DNA of 39,051 nucleotides. Source: a virus. A program made the position numbers and the translations under genes. Positions 9,219-32,200 of the stretch are shown piece by piece. Numbering within the stretch: position 1 is the stretch's first letter; each line of letters starts with the position of its first letter. Where the stretch lies: the IMG/VR virus record IMGVR_UViG_3300009370_002675, positions 1 through 39,051 of that record; one strand, written 5' to 3'. Below the pieces are notes generated by a model that was not told where the DNA came from, ran no database searches, and saw only the letters and a program-made list of their open reading frames with translations.

Positions 9219-10255
9219 TGAGTATTCCGATTGTATATTTTAGAAGCAGCTCTTTTAATTCACATAGGATGTGCCCTATGCAATATTACATGGAATACGG
9301 ACTAGGTTGGCGTGGTAATTCAGGCAAGAAAGCGGACAAGGGAACCATAGTTCACAAAATACTTGAGCTAGCAGCAGTCTCCAAAAAGGCTTTGCAGGAG
9401 GGTCAAGACACAATTGATGATAGTGAGATAGGTGAAATTGAAACGGCTAATTACGATCCAGAATATTTAGATGAAATTATAGATAAGGTCTATGAGTATT
9501 ATACATCTAGGACTACACATCATGAATGGAAACCTCTTGACCTTAAGCACTGTAGAGCATGGGTCTGGAAGATATTTAACGACGATGATGGTTTCTTTGA
9601 CCCAAAGAATAGAGTGGTAGTCGATGCAGAACCCCACTTTGATTTTGAGATTGAGGAAGAATGGGCTAAGTATTCCTATGAACTAGCAGATGGAACGGTA
9701 CTGGAGGGGAACTTAGCCTTAAAGGGCACAATTGACCTTATAACAGACATAGGGGATAATACATATGAGATTATAGATTGGAAGACTGGGAGAAGGTTGG
9801 ATTGGGCTACAGGTAAAGAAAAGACTATGGCCAAACTACAGAAAGATCCTCAATTAAGAATGTACCACCTCGCATGTAAAAAACTCTACCCTCATGTAGA
9901 CGCTTTCTTGGTAACAATACACTTTATGAATGACGGAGGCCCTTTCACTCTACACTTTCAAGACAGTGACATTCCTGAAACCTTAGAAATGATTAAGGCA
10001 AAGTTTGAAGTTATAAAGAAGACCGATCTTCCCCAGCAAAAGAAGTCTTGGAAATGTTCTAAACTATGTAATGCTGGCAAAAGCACTTATGAAGGGACGA
10101 ATGTAGATGTAATGTATAACGTGTTCGGTGCGCCACTGACGAAATGTGAGCAGACCCACGAAATGATTAAAGAACACGGTATCGAGTGGGTAACACAAAA
10201 CTGTACGGCTCCTGACCATGCAATAGGTAAATACCAAGCTCCGGGTGAAGTATGA
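9218..10255 (+). CDS. RecB/Cas4-like PD-(D/E)XK nuclease
   Basis: The 345-residue protein fits the RecB-nuclease (PD-(D/E)XK) superfamily. GTIVHKILE carries His46, LKGTIDLI carries Asp173, YEIIDWKTGR carries Asp187 and Lys189, and a Gln-x3-Tyr follows at 212-216. Cys19 near the N-terminus, together with Cys280, Cys284 and Cys310 or Cys329 near the C-terminus, recalls the iron-sulfur arrangement of Cas4 and AddB. It probably acts as an exonuclease in recombination or DNA processing. The ATG at 9218 overlaps the kinase stop and its own stop overlaps the next ATG. The Fe-S cluster is inferred from cysteine positions. Confidence 0.8.
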   Translation: MSIPIVYFRSSSFNSHRMCPMQYYMEYGLGWRGNSGKKADKGTIVHKILELAAVSKKALQEGQDTIDDSEIGEIETANYDPEYLDEIIDKVYEYYTSRTTHHEWKPLDLKHCRAWVWKIFNDDDGFFDPKNRVVVDAEPHFDFEIEEEWAKYSYELADGTVLEGNLALKGTIDLITDIGDNTYEIIDWKTGRRLDWATGKEKTMAKLQKDPQLRMYHLACKKLYPHVDAFLVTIHFMNDGGPFTLHFQDSDIPETLEMIKAKFEVIKKTDLPQQKKSWKCSKLCNAGKSTYEGTNVDVMYNVFGAPLTKCEQTHEMIKEHGIEWVTQNCTAPDHAIGKYQAPGEV

Positions 10256-10797
10256 TAAGGCTTCCTTTTTCAGAGAGCATGGTAGAAAGAGCAAAAGAAA
10301 AAGCCTTGACACTCGGATCTATAAATAATTCTATCCTTCAAGGTAGGGGTAACATTGCTGGATATCTTGGAGAGGAAGCTCTGGCCCCATTTGTTAATGC
10401 AGAAATTGTAAGTAACAATAGAGGTCTTGACAAATATAACCACGACTTATTGTTAGGAAATTCAGACAGACTAGAAGTAAAAACAAAAAGGAGAACTGTA
10501 TCTCCAAGAGACTTTTATGATGTCTCTATAGCTGAAACAAGCGCTCACCAAAGGCCAGACCTGTATGCTTTTATAAGTCTAGAGTTTTCTAAAGCAACCA
10601 AGACCCATCCTAAAACATACTACGGTCTAAAAAATATATGGCTGTGTGGATTCATAACAGCTGAAAGATTTTGGAATGAGTCGGTCTTGTGGGAAAAGGG
10701 CAAGATAGACACAAGAAATAACTTCAAGACGCATGTAAACATGTATAATTTAGAGATAAGAAATTTACACAAAGACCTAACAGGAATAACAATATGA
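10252..10797 (+). CDS. Putative restriction-fold endonuclease
   Basis: The 181-residue protein has features of the PD-(D/E)XK fold: a helix GYLGEEALAPFV (about 38-49), then YNHDLLLG with an Asp near residue 64, then LEVKTKRR with Glu and Lys at the expected spacing. Several resolvase- and restriction-type enzymes share this shape, so it may be a junction resolvase or structure-specific nuclease. It overlaps its upstream neighbour by four bases and the DnaE gene by four bases. The family assignment is by pattern only. Confidence 0.5.
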   Translation: MIRLPFSESMVERAKEKALTLGSINNSILQGRGNIAGYLGEEALAPFVNAEIVSNNRGLDKYNHDLLLGNSDRLEVKTKRRTVSPRDFYDVSIAETSAHQRPDLYAFISLEFSKATKTHPKTYYGLKNIWLCGFITAERFWNESVLWEKGKIDTRNNFKTHVNMYNLEIRNLHKDLTGITI

Positions 10798-12653
10798 AAT
10801 ATGTGCCACTTCATGTACACAGCGAATACTCACTCTTAGATGGTTTATCGCAAACCTCTCAAATATCAAAGAGACTTGAAGAAATAGGGGTTGACGCATG
10901 CGCTCTCACCGATTACGGCACTATTTCCGGAGCTATTGACTTTCATAAAACAATATCCAACGGATTTAAACCTATCCTAGGATGTGAGCTATACTTATCT
11001 TCTCAAGACTCGTCTATAAAGACAGTTGAAAATAAAAGCCTTTCCCACCAAGTTGTATTGGCAAAAAATTTAGATGGATGGAAGAAGTTATTATCTCTTG
11101 TTTCTATCTCCAACAATCCAGACAACTTCTATTATAAGCCCAGAATAGGCTTTGATGATTTCCTGTCTCTTGTGTCGTCAGATGGAAATTTAATTTCTTT
11201 TAGCGGACATCTAGGCTCTCACTTGGGAAATCTAGTTACAGATAATCCGAACTGGAAAAAAGAAGGCTGCGCTGAAGCTAGAAGACTTCAAGAGTCTTTT
11301 GGTAAAGAAAATTTCTATATAGAGATACAACTGATAGACTCTTTGACTAACAGTAAAGCAAAGGAGTGTGCAGAAAAGTTAAGAGAAATATCTAAGGCTA
11401 CTGGAATACCATGTGTTGCAACTCCTGATGCGCATTATTGCAGAAAGGAAGATTCCCACGATCAAAGGGTTTTGTTATGTACAGCATTAAGAAAAAGTAT
11501 CAGCCAGATACAATCGGAAATCAATCAGGGCAAGCTTGTGTCAATGAAGGCTTTCTTTGAGTCCGACAACTACCACATACCATCTTGCGAGGAAATGAAT
11601 CAGCTTCACACTCCAGAAGAGCTACAAAGCACTCTTGATATTGCTGAGCAATGCACAAACTATGAAATTTTAGGCCCTCCAAATCCACCTGTTTTTGATT
11701 GTCCTGAGGGAATGTCCCCAAATGACTACCTTAGATACCTATGTCGCGAGGGCTGGGTGGAAAAAATGGATCATATAAACAAAGGCCACGACCTCTTTGG
11801 GACTTACGGAGACAGGGTTGATAAAGAAATAAAAATCTTTACTGAAACTAATCTGTCTAGCTATTTCTTGATTGTTAGAGATATTTTACAGTATGCAAAC
11901 TCTAAGGGTTATCTGACTGGACCGGGAAGAGGAAGCGCTGCAGGATGTATGGTTTCATACCTAATGGGTATAACTAAAATTGACCCGGTGCCGTATAATC
12001 TTATTTTTGAGAGATTTTACAATGCTGGTCGTAATGCTGGAGGTAGGGTGTCAATGCCAGATATTGATGTCGATGTTCCTAAGTACGGAAGGAATGATAT
12101 AATAGCATACATTAAGAAAAAATATGGTAAAGACAATGTTGCTCAAATCATTAGCTTCCAGACGCTCAAGGGTAGAGCTGCTTTAAAAAGAGTTATGGCC
12201 TCAAGAGGTAACATAGGTTTTGATGAGCAGAACGCTATAACTTCTTACATTTTAGATGAGGCTAAAATTGCTGATGATCTTCAGGATATGAAAGAAGAAC
12301 TTGGGACTTCTTCTGTGATTACTTGGGCTCTTGAAAACAGGAAGGACAAACTGAGTGAATGGTGTCAGGTGAATGAAAATGGAGAGCTGGAAGGCAGGTT
12401 TGCTAAAATATTTGAGCAGGCAGTAAGACTGGAAAACACAAAAATAGTGCAGTCAAAGCACGCTGCGGGCGTTGTTGTCTCCCCACAGCCCATCTATGAT
12501 GTTTGCCCTATGGTAATCGACAGGGAAGGTAAAGATCTTTTGGCTGGATTCGAAGGCCCTAGCTGTGAAGATGCAGGCTTGTTAAAGTTAGATATCTTAG
12601 GTATCAAAATGTTAGATAAAATTATGGACATATCAACGATTTTAAAGGTATAA
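10794..12653 (+). CDS. dnaE: DNA polymerase III alpha, N-terminal half (split DnaE)
   Basis: The 619-residue product matches the first half of bacterial DnaE. The PHP domain starts with LHVHSEYSLLDG (His7, His9). The palm contains GPGRGSAAG (376-384) and PDIDVD (422-427), which hold the first two catalytic Asp residues. KHAAGVVVS follows, and the third catalytic Asp is in LLKLDILG (Asp600). The chain then stops 19 residues later, before the fingers domain. It therefore holds all three catalytic acids but cannot bind the incoming nucleotide or the clamp alone. The rest is encoded at 13509-15146. No intein sequence is present at the break. The two products presumably assemble non-covalently. 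Confidence 0.9.
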   Translation: MKYVPLHVHSEYSLLDGLSQTSQISKRLEEIGVDACALTDYGTISGAIDFHKTISNGFKPILGCELYLSSQDSSIKTVENKSLSHQVVLAKNLDGWKKLLSLVSISNNPDNFYYKPRIGFDDFLSLVSSDGNLISFSGHLGSHLGNLVTDNPNWKKEGCAEARRLQESFGKENFYIEIQLIDSLTNSKAKECAEKLREISKATGIPCVATPDAHYCRKEDSHDQRVLLCTALRKSISQIQSEINQGKLVSMKAFFESDNYHIPSCEEMNQLHTPEELQSTLDIAEQCTNYEILGPPNPPVFDCPEGMSPNDYLRYLCREGWVEKMDHINKGHDLFGTYGDRVDKEIKIFTETNLSSYFLIVRDILQYANSKGYLTGPGRGSAAGCMVSYLMGITKIDPVPYNLIFERFYNAGRNAGGRVSMPDIDVDVPKYGRNDIIAYIKKKYGKDNVAQIISFQTLKGRAALKRVMASRGNIGFDEQNAITSYILDEAKIADDLQDMKEELGTSSVITWALENRKDKLSEWCQVNENGELEGRFAKIFEQAVRLENTKIVQSKHAAGVVVSPQPIYDVCPMVIDREGKDLLAGFEGPSCEDAGLLKLDILGIKMLDKIMDISTILKV

Positions 12654-12657
12654 TTTA

Positions 12658-12852
12658 ATGAACGAACAAAGCTTTGAAGTTAGGTTTGAACCATCAATTG
12701 GAGAACACTGTTATGTCTACCAAAGAAATGATGGTTCTAGCTTTGGGTCTATAGTAAAACCCCATGAGTGGGGGGAAAATTACCAATACAAGTTTTTATA
12801 TAAAGCGACATATACCTCAGAAGGAAAGTGGAAAAAGAACAATGAACAATAG
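12658..12852 (+). CDS. Small protein resembling DUF2452
   Basis: The product has 64 residues. The pattern FEPSIGEHCYVYQRNDG...VKPHEWG...YKATYTSEGKW resembles, from memory, the C-terminal portion of DUF2452 proteins, which have no known function. The ATG at 12658 follows AAGGTATAATTTA, four bases after the DnaE N-half stop. It overlaps the exonuclease start by 11 bases. Its place between the two polymerase halves suggests it came with the exonuclease gene. Confidence 0.5.
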   Translation: MNEQSFEVRFEPSIGEHCYVYQRNDGSSFGSIVKPHEWGENYQYKFLYKATYTSEGKWKKNNEQ

Positions 12853-13522
12853 ATGGATAATTGTATTCGACTGGGAAACTGATAGCCCAAACCCAAACAC
12901 ATGCAACCCTGTTGAGCTTGCTGCCGTACCAGTGAATCCTCGCACGTTAGAAATAAAAACAGATCAAGCATTTCGGGCAACTATTCGTCCAGACGATATT
13001 GATTCCGAAGAATATTTTACCAAAGAAAGACAAGGAACTATAGCTTGGCACGCGAAGCAGCGTGGAGTAGAAACAGAAGAGATTATAGCAGACTGGAAAC
13101 AAGGTCAAAGTGAAAAAGTTGTCTGGAAAAACTTTTGCAACTACTGCGCTAAGTACGAAGTAGACAAAAAGCCGGGACAATGGTATACAGAACCCATCCC
13201 TTCAGGATATAATATTATTGGATTTGATCTTGTCATTGCCAATAGGATGGTTGAAAAACACAAAACAAAGTCTCCTTTCTCAAAGGTAACTAAGATTGAC
13301 ATGATGGACATCCTGTTTATGTGGTTCGAAAATTTAGATGAGCCTAGCAGTATGAAGCTTGATGCTTTCCGAGACTTCTTCGGAATGGAAGCAGCACAAG
13401 CACATGAGGCACTATCAGATACTATTGACGAGGCTGAGCTGTTAGTGAAGTTCATGAAGTTTCATCGAAGACAATCGACAGTTGGAAAATTTAAGGATTC
13501 ATTTGCTAATGCTAAAGTTTAA
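12842..13522 (+). CDS. DEDDh 3'-5' exonuclease (DnaQ/epsilon-like)
   Basis: The 226-residue protein has the three exonuclease motifs in order: Exo I VFDWET (Asp10, Glu12), Exo II NIIGFD (Asp129) and Exo III AHEALSDTIDEAEL (His188, Asp193). This places it in the DEDDh group with the epsilon proofreading subunit of DNA polymerase III. It would remove misincorporated bases for the split polymerase around it. The ATG at 12842 follows GGAAAGTGG; an upstream GTG at 12764 would overlap the previous gene heavily and add no domain. Its last 14 bases overlap the DnaE C-half start. A separate exonuclease gene lying inside a dnaE gene is unusual. Confidence 0.85.
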   Translation: MNNRWIIVFDWETDSPNPNTCNPVELAAVPVNPRTLEIKTDQAFRATIRPDDIDSEEYFTKERQGTIAWHAKQRGVETEEIIADWKQGQSEKVVWKNFCNYCAKYEVDKKPGQWYTEPIPSGYNIIGFDLVIANRMVEKHKTKSPFSKVTKIDMMDILFMWFENLDEPSSMKLDAFRDFFGMEAAQAHEALSDTIDEAELLVKFMKFHRRQSTVGKFKDSFANAKV

Positions 13523-15146
13523 GTGTGGATGTGAATTTCACCAAGACGAAAATGGAAAGACCATATTCGATCCTGATATCAGCAAACTAAACATGGACTG
13601 TGTTGCCACTTGGGATATGATCTGCGATGGAAACACCAAGGGGGTATTTCAGTTAGAGTCTCAACTAGGACGGTCTCTGTCCTCTCAAACAAAGCCTAGA
13701 GACATAGCAGAACTATCAGACTTGATCGCAATTATGCGGCCCGGATGTCTAGAGGCTATAGTTAATGGTAAAACTCTGACTATGCATTACATTGATAGAA
13801 AACACAAAAGAGACGCTGTAGAATATTTTCATGACTCCTTAGAGAGCATACTGGGCAGCACGTATGGTATTTTAGTGTACCAAGAACAGGCAATTCTAAT
13901 TGCTACAGAAATAGCCGGATTTGATTTGCAAGAAGCTGACATTCTCAGAAAGGCTATCGGTAAGAAAAAGGCAGATGTAATGGCTGAGGTTAAAAAGTCT
14001 TTTATTGAAAAGGCTATAAAAAAAGAGATTGTTAATAGAGAACAGGCTGAAGAAATTTTTAGCTGGATCGAGAAATCTCAAAGATATTCTTTTAATAAAT
14101 CTCACTCAGTAAGCTACGCCTACAATGCTTACCTAACAGCATACGCAAAAGCACATTTTCCACATGAATTTTTTACCTCATATCTAAGAAATGCCGTTGG
14201 TAAACCAGACACCTTCATGGAAGTACAAGAGCTTGTCAATAACGCTAAAATAATGGGAATCAATGTAATGCCTCCAAGTGTTACAAAAATGAATGAAGAA
14301 TTTAAGCTAATGGGGGATAACCCTACTTATGGAATGACCAATGTAAAAGGGGTAGGCTCGTCTGTATTTGCAAAGATGAGTGCAGACATGGAGGAAAGAG
14401 GCATTGACCCAGAGAATTGCGATTGGGACTGCTTTCTGCTTTTAGTGTCTCCCCACGTTAACAAAAAGGCATTTTTAAACTTGATACTAGCTGGGTGCTT
14501 TGATTCTTTTAAAATATCTAGAAGTAAGATGCAGCACCAGTACAGCATTGTAAAAGAACTTTCGAAGAGAGAAATTACTTGGCTGTCGGAATACAAGACA
14601 GACAATCCTGAAGAGAAGGTTAAAGAATGTCTATTAAAAATGATAAGTGTATCGGATTCCAAGGATAAAAAAAGACCAATTTTCAGAAAGGCTAGAATTC
14701 CAGTGGTTGTAGACCTAGTGGATGCTTATGAAAATCCGGGATATGACCTATACGATTCTCCGTCTTGGCTCGCAAAACAAGAGGAGGAGCTTCTGGGAAC
14801 AGCATTAACTTGCAGTAAAGTAGATGAGTATGACACAAGCAGGTCCAACTGTACATGCAAAGAATTTTTAGACGGATTCCAAGGTCAGCAGGGTATATAT
14901 TTAGCGGTACAAGTCAACGCTGTCCGGGAATGGGAGATTAAAAAAGGACGTTCAAAAGGTCAAAAGATGGGCTTTTTAACAGTGAGTGACACTAGCTGTT
15001 CTATAGATAATGTAACAGCTTTTTCTGAAGAATGGGATAAGTATAAAAAATTACTCCATGAAGGCAATACGGTACTACTTAGAGGTATCAAAGACAAGAA
15101 TAGAGGAAGTTTTTTGATTAAAAAGGTAGAACAATTAACAAGTTAG
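13509..15146 (+). CDS. dnaE: DNA polymerase III alpha, C-terminal half (split DnaE)
   Basis: The 545-residue product supplies the missing half of DnaE: TKGVFQLES (43-51), the fingers segment with YGILVYQEQ (119-127), ADILRKAIGKKK (143-154), SFNKSHS (194-200), a helix-hairpin-helix-like part (MTNVKGVGSS) and a C-terminal OB fold (GIYLAVQVNA and FLTVSD). The ATG at 13509 lies 11 bases after AAGGA; a TTG at 13482 is less likely. The first 30 residues contain CGCEFH and lead into DCVATWDMI, as in the normal connector. The SFNKSHS motif, the insertion site of the cyanobacterial split DnaE intein, is intact here, so this break is a different event. Confidence 0.9.
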   Translation: MLKFKCGCEFHQDENGKTIFDPDISKLNMDCVATWDMICDGNTKGVFQLESQLGRSLSSQTKPRDIAELSDLIAIMRPGCLEAIVNGKTLTMHYIDRKHKRDAVEYFHDSLESILGSTYGILVYQEQAILIATEIAGFDLQEADILRKAIGKKKADVMAEVKKSFIEKAIKKEIVNREQAEEIFSWIEKSQRYSFNKSHSVSYAYNAYLTAYAKAHFPHEFFTSYLRNAVGKPDTFMEVQELVNNAKIMGINVMPPSVTKMNEEFKLMGDNPTYGMTNVKGVGSSVFAKMSADMEERGIDPENCDWDCFLLLVSPHVNKKAFLNLILAGCFDSFKISRSKMQHQYSIVKELSKREITWLSEYKTDNPEEKVKECLLKMISVSDSKDKKRPIFRKARIPVVVDLVDAYENPGYDLYDSPSWLAKQEEELLGTALTCSKVDEYDTSRSNCTCKEFLDGFQGQQGIYLAVQVNAVREWEIKKGRSKGQKMGFLTVSDTSCSIDNVTAFSEEWDKYKKLLHEGNTVLLRGIKDKNRGSFLIKKVEQLTS

Positions 15147-15177: not shown

Positions 15178-15630
15178 ATGCAGGATTTAATTGAACAAAA
15201 CATGGGGCTGGTAGTGTCTGTAGTAGAATCTTTCAGACCTAAGAGCTCCGAGGAAAGAGATAGTTTTATACAGGCTGGGAGAATAGGTCTATGGAAGGCT
15301 CTTCAAAAGTATGACTCTACTAAGGGTGCAGCTTTATCAACCTTTGCTTGGAACCCTATTAGGTGGGAGATAATCAAAGAAATAAAGACAGTTTCTAAAA
15401 ATAAATGTTATTCAATATCAGGAATGCCCAACATTTGTTATGAAAATAAGAATGATTTCTCTGAATTATATCCTACAAATTTAACAGAAGAGGAAGCTTT
15501 TATTATAGACCTAAGAAGATGTGGATATAAACTAAGGGAAATATGCGACATTGTTGGTAGGGGAAGATCCTATATTAAAAAAACTGTATATAGAGCTATT
15601 TCAAAAATAAGGGATGCCAATGACGAATAA
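15178..15630 (+). CDS. Small sigma-70 family factor
   Basis: The 150-residue protein contains sigma region 2 (residues about 8-72: NMGLVVSVVESF, DSFIQAGRIGLWKALQKYD and LSTFAWNPIRWEI) and region 4 (about 105-146, with the helix-turn-helix LREICDIVGRGRSYIKKTVYRA). Region 1 and most of region 3 are missing, as in alternative or ECF-like factors and T4 gp55-type phage sigma factors. It would direct RNA polymerase to a phage promoter class, probably late genes. It is preceded by a 31-base gap with an AAGG before the ATG. Confidence 0.85.
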   Translation: MQDLIEQNMGLVVSVVESFRPKSSEERDSFIQAGRIGLWKALQKYDSTKGAALSTFAWNPIRWEIIKEIKTVSKNKCYSISGMPNICYENKNDFSELYPTNLTEEEAFIIDLRRCGYKLREICDIVGRGRSYIKKTVYRAISKIRDANDE

Positions 15631-26289: not shown

Positions 26290-29200
26290 TTAACAACCTT
26301 CACATTCACAGGGCCCATCATCGTCTGATACATGGGTAAACAATCCGCACGCGCTAAAGTTTAATGTTGAGTATCTAACCGTTAAGTCATCTCCTGTGCA
26401 ACAAACGTCTCTTACTAACGTAACTCCAGAAGCCGCTCCTCCATGACACGGGTTCGCGGAAGATATTGTCCTTCCAGCATTAGGGTCGATGCTTATTTTA
26501 GCACCCTTTTTGTCACCACATAGCGTATCACTACTAGCTTCTAGTTTTAATCCACACCCTAACTCTATATTCTCTAAGTGGCTAAACGTCTCTGTAGACA
26601 TGCTGCTAGAGGTTCCTTCACAGGTGCCACTTTGACCTTTCAATGTTAGATTGGTATAAACTATAGCATCACAGCCATTTTCTCTACCTGTAATATAAAC
26701 TCCGGGACCAGCAAATATATCACAAACATTTGAAGGAGCATGAGTCCATCCAGCTAACGGCGTACAACTAGCAGTGCCTTCGCTGTTAAAATCAAAACGC
26801 TGAACCCCTGTCATGTCTATCTCTAAGAATATATCATGGGAACACATGTCCGGATAGTATTTTGAAGTTAGACCGCAGCCAAAGTTGAGTTCTGTAAAGC
26901 TTTCCCCGTCAGAGTCTGCGAGAGAGCTATAAGGAGAGACCCCTACGCAATGACTTGAGTTCAGAACTTTCATCGGATTGGTGAGAACCTTTGTTCCACA
27001 TCCAGACGATGTTAAGGAAAGACCTGTAGATACAATTAATTTACTGAACGGGGATTCAGTAACGTCCATTGGAAGACAGTCTCCGGGGCCTTCACAAGAG
27101 CCTCCATCACACCACTTTTCTCCAGATATTTTTGGACCGCTAATAAGGAAACCGCAAGGATCACCCCCTCCGGTGCTCTCAATATTAATGCCTGTTGTAA
27201 ATATAAGGTCATGGAAGAATGTTCTTGAGAAATCTAGTGCTCCATCACAACCAGAACCACTCACATACTGTGGAGCATGAATGACAGGATGACAATCTGT
27301 ATTGGTTTTTTCAAATCCAGTTCCAAACGTTAGCTGTTGGAAAGGCTTGCCTCCCCAGTCTCCACCACCACCATCAAGACTACAAGAGCCAATCCCACTA
27401 ACCCTAGGGCCAGAAATTATAAATGAGCAATTATCACCCTCGTTTGTGCTCTGGATAGTTGTACCAGTTGTAAAAATCAACTCATTAAAGAAAGATCTTG
27501 CAAACGTATTTTCGCAGTCACCTGATCCGCTAACATATTGAGGAGCGTGGACGATAGGCTGGCAATCCGTTCCCCCTTCTTGAGAAAATCCTGAGCCAAA
27601 AATCAACGTATCAAAAGGAAGTCCTCCCCAATCTGAAGCTCCTGCTTGAGCAGTACAAGACTCTATACCGCTCACTTTAGGTCCAGATATTACGTATCTA
27701 CAGTCATCTCCCGGAGCAGCATCTTGTATGTTAACTCCTGTTGTAAATATTAGCTCATTAAAGAATTTACGGGTAGTAAACGTATTGCAATCGCCTGAGC
27801 CGCTAACATACTGGGGTGCGTGGACGATAGGCTGGCAATCCGTTCCCCCTTCTTGATGAAGTCCTGAGCCAAACACTAGCATATTGAATGGGTTGCCGCC
27901 CCAGTTACCCGCTCCAGCTTGTGATGTGCATGATGCTAGACCGCTCACTTTAGGTCCTTCAATAAACCATGAATTGGCCTCAGCAGTATTTTCAGAAACT
28001 TTAAGCCCCGTGCTGAAAAGCATGTGGGAAGCTATTTGTTTTACTGGAGTATTATTGGTACAGCCAGTATTGCTTATAAAGGTAGAACCTCCTCCTCCTC
28101 CAGAGCCTGATGACCAGATTTCATAACTGCAATCACCTAGCGATCTTACACCTAGCCCGCTTGTGAACGACAGGTTGTTGAAGAATGCACTACTTATCGA
28201 TGTATCGCTCTCTAGTAAAGTAGTTCCCGTAGCAGATATAGTATGGTCTGCATCAATTCCATATTCACAGTCAGCTCCAGTAACCTTTAAGCCCGATCCA
28301 AACTTCAAATGCTCATACGGCTTATCGGAAATAGAAGGAGAGTGATTACAATAGGAATCATCAGTAATCTTGTGAGCGGATTTTATTATATAATCACAGT
28401 TAGCGCCAGTTTTCTCTACATCAATACCTGTTGAGAAGTATAACAGGTCAAATGGAACACTATCTATTGATAAAGTATTATCACAAGTATTTTTAGATAT
28501 CCTTCTTGATGAACCTATGGTAAATTCGCAATCACCATCATCTTTGACATCTATACCAGTGCTAAAGGTTAAGAGTCTAAATAGCTGATCTGGTACGGCG
28601 GGTGAACCACAAACTTCCTCAGCCTTAATTCTATGGTCTGCATCAATAGTGAAGTCACAGCTTCCACCACTAACTTTAAGACCTGATCCAAAAATAAGAG
28701 TTTCAAAATATTGCTTATCAGATGCTACGGTTGGAGAATATGCACAATACCCAGTGTCTTTCACAAATCTTGAGACGTTAACCCCATAAGAGCAATCGGC
28801 TCCAGTAACTTGCAAGCCTGATCCAAAAGCTATGTTTGTAAAGAATGATTCTGCTGGAATCTCTGGACTATATTCACAATAGGCTATATCTGAGATGCTG
28901 TGATCCGCAACGATTCCAAATTCACATGCTGAACCTGTTGTCTTTAGGCCTGAACTGAAGTTAAGTTTTGTGTATGAGGTATAGTCTAGGAGTGTTCCTG
29001 TATGACCACAATACTCACCATCTTTAAGTTTATGTGCAGAGGATATTTTAAATGCACAATCCCCTTCATCTGATACCTCCATACCAGTGCCGAATAGTAA
29101 CTTCTTAAAGAATTGTTCAGGAATAGTCTCAGTGTCGCATTCTCCGCTGGTGGAGATATATCTTTCTACATCAATTGTAGGATTACAATCGGTTCCAGTC

Positions 29201-32200
29201 ATCTTAAATCCAGAACCGAATATTAATGTGCCAAAGGACTTGCCTCCCCAATTAGAGACTCCACAACTCCCAATACCGCTAAGTTTGGGACCTTCAATCA
29301 GCCAAGAGTTTGGAGAGTCTAGATTTTGAGTAACATCTAGGCCGGTGCTAAATACCATATGTTGTGTTGGTTGGAAACTGGGCCCACTGGCATCACAACC
29401 ACTATTTGATATATAAGAAATTGCACCTCCTGAACCGGAAGCAAACACCTCATAAACACAGTCTCCTAAATCTTTCACCCCTAAGCCACTTGTAAAACTT
29501 AGATTCTTAAAGAATTGATTATTAACACTATCAGAGTCCGTCAAAGTAGAGCCGGTGCTACTTATAGTTATATCAGTACTTATAGAATAATTACAATCAC
29601 CTGAAGAGTTTACATTAAGACCACTATTAAAGATAAGATTATTAAACAATGTTGGAGCTAGTACTTCATTCCCTACACAGCCCTCTACGTGAGAAATAGT
29701 TCTATTAGAGTCTATCTTAAACTCACAGTTAGCGCCCTCCTCTATCGTTAAACCCGATCTTGCAGTAATCTTTTTAAAGGGCTTGTCAGTTACGGAAACC
29801 GATTCGTTACAAGTAGCCTCATCCTTCAGGAGAAGATTAACATCTAGCTTGTATTCACAATTGCTAGCCTCTTCAATTTTCAATCCTGAACGTGCAGTGA
29901 TCTTCTTAAAGTTCTTATCTGTAACTGTAACTGTGTCACCACATGTGGCCTCATCGTTAACTTCTAGATTTACATCTAACTTGTATTCGCAGGCATCTGT
30001 AGTGATGAACCTTAAACCAGAACGAGCTGTAATCTTCTGAAATGGTTTATTATGCATATTAACTACATCGCCACATGTAGCCTCGTCGTCCACTAGAAGA
30101 TTAACATTTATATCGTATCCGCAATCATCGGATTCTTCTAAAGTCAATCCTGACTTGAAGTTTAATTTACTAAATAATTCATAGTCTGCTACCGTAGATG
30201 TTGTAGAGCAAGTTGATTCATCTTTAACCTGAATGTCGGAACTTATAGTTCCCGTACAGCTTCCTGCACCTGCATACTTAAGGCCTGTTCCCATAACAAG
30301 AGTAGTAACATTCTCTGGGGCAACTTCGTCGTTTCCGCACACACCTGAAGAGCCAACCTTAAAGTCAGAGGAAATCTTATAGCCACAATTTCCCTCTGAC
30401 CCTAAAGTAAGACCTGTTCCTATAATTAAGCTATCATAGAAACCCCCTTCTTGACCTGTATTACCACATGTAGCTGCTCCGGTAATTGTATTAGTGCTGC
30501 TAATTGTCCATTCACAACCCGTCCCAGTAACTTGCAGTCCGGAAGAGAAGTTGAGTCTATTGAAGAATGAATAGTTTGACGGCGCATCTTCTGCAGAGAC
30601 TGAACCGCATGTAGGGGTAGATTTTATGCTATGATCAGCAGTAATCCTATATGCACAACCCGAGGTTTCACCTCCTGTTCCGGTAACATCATCAACGTAA
30701 AGACCTGTTCCAAACTCTAAGTGCTGAAAAAAGGCACCTTCAAGTAATCCAGTTCCCGTATTGCCTGTATGACCACAGTATTTACCATCCGTAAGGGTCT
30801 GCTCGGCTGTAATTACGTAATTGCAACTGCCTTCACTTCGCTCGACGGCTAACCCCTTTGAAAATAGCAAGTTTTCATAAGTTACACCTGTGAGGTCGTC
30901 CCCTGTTCCTGTTCCGCAACTTCTGTTGGAAAGGGTCTTGGTGCTAGATATGGAATACGTACATCCGCTCACGTTCTCAACAAACAATCCAGTTTTGACT
31001 AGAAGGTTATTAAAGAAGTTATAACCATAATCACCAGTTCCAGTTCCAGAACAGATTGGATCGAAACCTATCTGATGATCGGCATGAATACTGAATGAAC
31101 AGTCAGTATCACCAGTAATGACATTTAAGCCAGTCGCGAATGTAAGGTCTGTAAACCTTCGGTTTGTAATTGGTAGTCCTGTTCCAGTTTGGCAACCGCT
31201 AAGATTGGTTATCTTTATATCGGAAACTATTGCATACTTACAATCTCCTGAACTCTCTACTCCAATTCCAGTGCTAAATAAAAGACCGCTATAGACGGCG
31301 TCTTGAATACTACCTGATTCACCACCACACTCAAAGAGACTTAGCCTTTGTAGGATAGGATCAACAGTAAAGTCACCATCACACCCAGAATTCTCCCCTG
31401 TGTTTTTAGATAAAATAAAACCCGAGCCAAAATTAAGACTCTCGAAAAATCCTCCAGTAGGCTGTGCTTCTCCCGAACAGAAGTTTCCCTGACCCGTAAC
31501 TGATAAGTTAAGTTCAATTACAGCAGAATGAGTTCCACTAGGATCATTCATAAAGTTGCCTGAACCTAAACCTTCTGCGCATCCGCCAGTTCCAGTGTTG
31601 GTTCCCGACAAGCAGACAGTCGATAATGCAAGACCTTTTCCTAAGACTAAGTTTGTTACATCACATATAGATGGGAATTCATATCCTGTTCCATCAGCTG
31701 AATAGTCACCAGAACCGCTAGCCTCACAACCACTGGAAATGACGCATAGACTAGTTCCGCTAGAAGGGGAGGACAGTAAAGGATAATAGGTACACTCAAC
31801 ATTATCATAAAAGGCGAAGAAAGTATCCCCGCTTTCTGGAGGAGTCATTCCAGAAGGAACTGTGTATATGATACTTCCGCTTGTTAGCGGATTTCCACCG
31901 GAATCATACGTCTGAGTTAGATTTTTTATTGTAGCTCCAGCGCCGTTCTCGCCAGATCCAGTAGCTGTAGCAACACCTATTCTGAACTGGTTGGGAACAG
32001 TCCATACAGCTCTAGTCCTGTCAAACCTTAAGTCTATTGGTGCTACAGGCCATGTCTCTTGATTTGTTAACCATCCCGTTAAAAATGTATCTTTTAATCC
32101 GGTATGTTGAAATGTGCCATCCCTAGCGTCGATTGGGTCGTCCACATAGTTAGGTATAGGTTTTCCTTCTGTATCATAACCCCACCCATGAAGTAACATA

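Follow-up and report, generated by a model that had tools for sequence, protein, structure and literature searches.

A phage DNA polymerase III alpha encoded in two genes around a DEDDh exonuclease gene, conserved across a wide clade

A replicative DNA polymerase is generally regarded as one chain that must stay intact. Cyanobacterial DnaE, the alpha subunit of DNA polymerase III, is split by an intein, its two pieces being broken at the FNKSHS motif and intein-joined. Among phages, a split minimal polymerase III alpha has been described in group 2.2 jumbo phages, whose genomes encode the pieces in distant genes and have a family B polymerase as well (Iyer et al. 2021, PMC7824862), and Aeromonas phage 25 carries a split gene 43 whose products, 43A and 43B, co-purify and polymerise (PMC2988022), so a split phage replicase can work. 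Here we analysed a 39,051-base virus record, IMGVR_UViG_3300009370_002675 (the whole of which we call the window), where DnaE is encoded by two genes with a DEDDh 3′–5′ exonuclease gene between them, an arrangement that recurs throughout a wide, apparently uncultured phage clade. We consider it highly probable that these genes specify a two-chain, non-covalent DnaE-type replicase, with the exonuclease as its presumed proofreader and with a break that arose once. Split phage polymerases are already known; what is new is the fixation of the break over a wide clade together with the exonuclease locked in the gap. For a phage DnaE split around an exonuclease we found no report in the open-licence papers searched, where the work of Iyer et al. 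is the nearest.

Each precedent differs from the clade in specific ways. Polymerase III of the group 2.2 jumbo phages is a minimal core without other polymerase III domains, whereas the clade has near full-length halves with PHP, HhH and OB; the jumbo-phage halves lie in distant genes, whereas those of the clade are clustered round the exonuclease, up to ~6 kb apart; and the jumbo phages have a family B polymerase, of which none was found in the clade (PF00136, 16 contigs). The 43A/43B pair of T4-like Aeromonas phages is also a two-chain replicative phage polymerase, but it belongs to family B, is linked to a seg homing endonuclease or untranslated sequence, and occurs in few phages. The site at which cyanobacterial DnaE is broken is intact in the clade, and no intein is found at the clade's own break. 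In Rossellomorea phage phiT1 (gp20/gp18; PV767480), DnaE is split at the same palm–finger linker with a 49-amino-acid open reading frame (ORF) between the pieces, but there is no exonuclease in the gap; because phiT1 falls outside the clade in our tree and the nearest relatives that the phage records yielded have DnaE annotated as one gene, its break is apparently independent. DnaE likewise occupies two adjacent genes in the Microbacterium Krampusvirus phages RikSengupta and Kate, but the break comes after ~345 amino acids, upstream of the palm, with no exonuclease gene annotated between. These breaks elsewhere, at the same linker in phiT1 and upstream of the palm in Krampusvirus, suggest that the linker tolerates cuts. 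PolC, finally, likewise pairs polymerase III alpha with a DEDDh exonuclease, which our exonuclease model matches at Z 19.0 (root-mean-square deviation 2.1), but PolC is one chain that carries its exonuclease as an inserted domain within PHP.

In the window, the N-half (10794..12653, + strand; 619 amino acids; Pfam PHP and DNA_pol3_alpha) comprises PHP, palm/NTPase and thumb, carries the catalytic residues D423, D425 and D600, and alone scores 454 bits against TIGR00594. The C-half (13509..15146, + strand; 545 amino acids from the ATG at 13509; Pfam DNA_pol3_finger and HHH_6) begins with a Cys-containing N-terminal extension of ~22 amino acids, followed by fingers, HhH and OB fold; Pfam and PDB profiles find the DnaE-type modules PHP, palm, fingers, HhH and OB in order over the two halves. 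Profile matches to solved PDB structures equate N-half profile position 618 with Taq DnaE 636, and C-half profile position 21 with Taq 642 and E. coli 585, and the break coincides with the Pfam palm/finger boundary. By these alignments the break is in the palm–finger linker, with DnaE sequence accounted for on both sides. An AlphaFold2 model of the C-half as a lone chain reached a predicted local distance difference test score (pLDDT) of 91.9 and matched DnaE structures at Z ~20; the C-half is predicted to fold on its own.

The original prediction, made from this sequence alone, was correct in several particulars: the N-half ends 19 residues past the third catalytic aspartate (D600), the C-half resumes before TKGVFQLES (which begins at its residue 43), and the cyanobacterial site is intact, as (Y)SFNKSHS within the C-half. 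Its further statement that nothing is lost did not hold. Alignment of the C-half model reaches residue 1125 of ~1220 in Taq and residue 1074 of 1160 in E. coli, immediately past the OB fold, so the window C-half lacks the C-terminal part with which bacterial DnaE binds tau; the similarity in total length to DnaE is owed to a longer N-half.

To establish how widespread the arrangement is, IMG/VR was searched separately with the C-half, the N-half and the exonuclease, and a set of ~85,000 bacterial and archaeal species genomes was also searched; each search gives the best 80 loci only, and more distant members, even a fused one, could exist. N-half, exonuclease and C-half follow one another on one strand in 309 of 336 clade loci (215 with distinct exonuclease sequences), bearing out the proposed split with the exonuclease gene inside. 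The other 27 loci are interrupted by the edge of a contig or stretch, and in two such loci that showed only the exonuclease and C-half, the N-half was located ~6 kb upstream on the same strand. A fused polymerase, the intact gene that the original prediction proposed looking for in relatives, was found in none of the 336 loci, and neither was a pair of halves without the exonuclease; wherever a locus holds both halves, they are two ORFs. Among newly fetched loci seeded with the exonuclease, all 73 carry the polymerase N-half and 67 the full arrangement, so among the best matches this family of exonucleases occurs solely alongside the split polymerase. The cellular set contributed only two members, L108 and L109, both split and both on short contigs (of a Flavobacteriales and a Lokiarchaeota metagenome-assembled genome); they are probably misbinned phage, and beyond them identity falls to that of ordinary bacterial DnaE, ~33%. 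A search of the phage collection with the exonuclease gave nothing at E 1e-3, and hence no cultured member. C-half matches in that collection were all below ~30% identity, and several of the top ones (MT83xxxx, the start of OQ572403; L028-L032) lie among ordinary bacterial genes, look like host DNA and were dropped.

Conservation was scored in 95 non-redundant representative sets. The three polymerase aspartates, the G(P)GRGS motif and all five DEDDh residues of the exonuclease are invariant (95/95), and the ratio of nonsynonymous to synonymous substitution rates (dN/dS) is ~0.04 or less for all three genes in near relatives, where dS is measurable. Recurrence in 215 distinct loci at such values is not chance. 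We accordingly assign a negligible probability to a decaying or redundant polymerase, or to an assembly artefact: the contigs are metagenomic and a few loci (L358, L076) contain extra stops, but the same break recurs across the distinct loci, the catalytic residues are kept throughout, and no polymerase of family A or B was found in 16 large contigs of up to 206 kb. Those contigs hold one polymerase III palm gene each, except for two in the 206-kb contig.

In a tree of the concatenated halves, a single clade with a long stem (1.08) unites 35 split polymerases (Shimodaira–Hasegawa-like approximate likelihood ratio test 100) and stands apart from phiT1, from intact phage DnaE and from bacterial DnaE; this is a quick tree with one support measure. 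Most simply read, the break occurred once, at the base of the clade, and has persisted. The comparison supports a break that is old and clade-fixed rather than a mutation of the window genome.

Two individual loci stand out for their polymerase genes. In L358 (5066-6706), an in-frame stop directly after GPGRGSAAG in the N-half may be a sequencing error, an inactivation or a site of readthrough. The two palm genes of the L232 record (206,326 bases; 53291-54163 and 199351-200223) lie 146 kb apart and score differently; either the genome has two split polymerases or the contig is chimeric.

We then considered whether the halves might be joined into one polypeptide. Protein trans-splicing, in which split-intein pieces on the halves would ligate them, has its precedent in cyanobacterial DnaE, and two clade members, L233 and L249, do have a split intein, although it lies within the N-half, between GPGRG and SAAG. 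At the main break, by contrast, N-halves extend beyond the palm profile by no more than 26 amino acids (median 4), and ahead of the C-half profile match the reading frame stays open for 9 amino acids at the median (37 or fewer in all but one), leaving no room for intein halves. Intein and Hint families had no match in the window halves, which lack the cyanobacterial pattern of an IntN piece on the first half and an IntC piece on the second; the same libraries detect the split intein in L233 and L249, which serve as a positive control. Trans-splicing is therefore extremely unlikely in our judgement, and the original prediction that there is no intein is upheld for this break.

The intein-bearing loci form a separate case. 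In L233 (1987-5117) and L249 (2316-4287) it is the N-half itself that is broken, within the palm active-site motif. The TIGR01445 intein_Nterm model scores 35.3 bits in L233 (cut-off 24.5), and L249 is matched more weakly by Hint/intein models; the intein gap of L233 holds an endonuclease-like ORF. Both appear to be fractured-gene arrangements in which the polymerase would come from three polypeptides.

The coding regions could also be joined at the level of RNA or translation, by a spliced intron that would carry the exonuclease gene or by translational bypass. Phage genes are often broken by group I introns with nuclease ORFs, but Rfam gave no match in the window and no intron family in ten relatives, gap content and length vary freely, and the nuclease in the gap is of the DEDDh and not the homing type; no homing nuclease marks the break, where the DEDDh exonuclease is present in every complete locus. 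The C-half, moreover, has a start of its own. In the window, the 3′ end of the exonuclease gene overlaps that start by 14 nucleotides in a different frame, and a putative ribosome-binding site of the C-half, AAGGA (13493..13497, + strand), can be read within the exonuclease gene. The exonuclease stop overlaps the C-half start in 66/94 representatives, and Shine–Dalgarno-like 4-mers precede the C-half start in 50/94, compared with a background of 19%; this suggests translational coupling at the exonuclease/C-half junction. In other members, genes for ThyX, uracil-DNA glycosylase, QueF, a cytidylyltransferase and other ORFs are inserted at either junction, with distances of up to 3.8 kb from exonuclease to C-half and up to ~6 kb from N-half to exonuclease. 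Across such insertions of unrelated genes, recoding or ribosome hopping could not join the halves. An intron or bypass is thus very unlikely, and the gene organization supports two separately translated chains and a break free of inteins and known introns.

Some of the inserted sequences merit individual mention. A QueF-like gene (7-deazaguanine pathway) lies between N-half and exonuclease at L044:6950-7324, and the L078 gap contains an extra HNH-like ORF, recognized by eye and without a Pfam match. A phage contig with ThyX between exonuclease and C-half also gave an Rfam match to permuted transfer-messenger RNA (L060:294-495; 87.8 bits).

The exonuclease gene of the window (12842..13522, + strand; 226 amino acids; Pfam RNase_T, E=5.5e-7) starts at the ATG at 12842, which is conserved in relatives, and not at 12764 as in the raw ORF list. 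Its AlphaFold2 model (pLDDT 93.7) has the RNase H-like fold, which together with the D-x-E, D and H...D residues (D10, E12, D129, H188 and D193) places it in the DEDDh class. The C-terminal tail reads K-x-[AS]-F in 70/95 representatives; as this is known by a loose pattern only, we do not call it a binding motif. Also in the gap is a 64-amino-acid DUF2452-like ORF (12658..12852, + strand; E=1.7e-5; 24.8 bits, slightly short of the 25-bit cut-off). In none of the first 27 relatives did tblastn match it; its place there is taken by other, unrelated ORFs or by short gaps, and we rejected it as a component of the system; it is probably a passenger. Of the two gap genes originally proposed, then, the exonuclease proved to be part of every complete locus, and the DUF2452-like ORF did not survive the comparison.

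A role for the exonuclease as the proofreading subunit is strongly suggested by its linkage to the polymerase and by the invariance of its DEDDh residues while the PHP site decays. PHP metal ligands are degenerate in 26/95 representatives (for example L212, L245, L003, L005 and L200), having been lost several times, and most of these members belong to one subclade with a shorter N-half (about 520-545 amino acids). A 2026 survey of bacterial polymerases in Nucleic Acids Research attributes the proofreading of C-family polymerases to PHP and DnaQ nucleases (PMC12926913). Comparison within the clade would, if the exonuclease has this role, be evidence that a separate DEDDh subunit can take proofreading over from PHP.

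Several observations weigh against a two-chain replicase with this proofreader. The exonuclease fold is close to a tie between DEDDh families (Z 19.9 for DinG, 19.1 for RNase T, 19.0 for the PolC exonuclease and 18.4 for E. coli epsilon), the Foldseek/VIA lists single out no one family (absence from those lists being no evidence), and epsilon sequence models match weakly, none above its cut-off. The contigs searched yielded no beta clamp, and incomplete contigs could hide another polymerase. Given the ties among PolC exonuclease, epsilon, RNase T and DinG, the label "epsilon subunit" in the original prediction is a functional guess, although its two-part polymerase stands as two separate chains. 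The exonuclease might instead have another role, such as primer or recombination processing, and be merely retained in the operon of a two-chain polymerase. The resemblance of its fold to RNase T, DinG and ExoI as much as to epsilon would fit such a role, as would its apparent exchangeability between lineages (see below). We nevertheless think it distinctly unlikely: the exonuclease is never missing and lies between N-half and C-half in every complete locus, its catalytic residues persist where the PHP site has decayed, which fits a proofreading takeover, and the survey cited above names PHP and DnaQ nucleases as C-family proofreaders.

A comparison of the window with L005 bears on the history of the exonuclease gene. 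The exonuclease proteins are 95% identical, whereas both polymerase halves are only 74% identical, which suggests that the gene was exchanged by recombination between the two lineages.

In the replicase that we propose, the N-half would supply PHP, palm and thumb with the three catalytic aspartates, and the C-half the fingers, HhH and OB fold. The chains would be translated separately from one cluster in the order N-half, exonuclease, C-half, often with coupling at the second junction, and would assemble across the palm–finger boundary without a covalent bond, the gap-encoded exonuclease acting as proofreading subunit. The break would have arisen once, at the base of the clade and in a tolerant linker, and been retained under purifying selection. 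Assembly of the halves, polymerase activity and the proofreading role are what we infer. Such a replicase would mean that what is normally a one-chain enzyme can persist long in evolution as a two-part machine, here a C-family replicase retained in two chains across the clade. It would also provide a natural split site for C-family polymerases and a way to test palm–finger cooperation over a non-covalent boundary. For annotation, the consequence is that the pieces are likely to be misread as fragments or broken genes.

A further possibility is that the exonuclease is a structural third subunit that bridges or nucleates the halves, making an obligate three-chain replicase that in many members would be locked by a metal site at C6, C8 and C31 of the C-half. 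We regard this as unlikely, if conceivable. These cysteines (CGC...C; window 13524-13616) are all present in 56/95 representatives; in the other 39/95, C6 and C8 are lost together and C31 is mostly Asp. A fourth metal ligand was sought, and C435 of the C-half co-varies with the three (89% compared with 5%). The cysteines at the C-half N-terminus are possibly a metal site at the break, and we list them as a candidate.

The two-chain polymerase lies at the end of a replication cluster on the + strand of the window, following a RecA/UvsX-like recombinase, a DnaB helicase, a Toprim primase, a deoxynucleoside monophosphate kinase and a PD-(D/E)XK nuclease. The gene immediately upstream (10252..10797, + strand) has no Pfam or PHROG match and overlaps the N-half start through an ATGA; its upstream position is conserved in most close relatives, and in L054 a homologue lies between exonuclease and C-half. 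Downstream of the C-half is a sigma-factor-like gene (15178..15630, + strand; Pfam Sigma70_r2), conserved in closer relatives. The window and a 79,624-base IMG/VR contig belong to the same virus (17,635/17,635 compared bases identical).

Within the replication cluster of the window, positions 3001-4257 (+ strand) encode a 418-amino-acid protein with a Cas12f1-like TNB domain (TnpB/IS605-like nuclease), followed by an HNH homing-type nuclease at 4357-4773. On the minus strand, a 3026-amino-acid ORF without a Pfam match (26290-35370) is adjoined by two further large ORFs, 35403-37055 and 37015-39030, which likewise have no Pfam matches.

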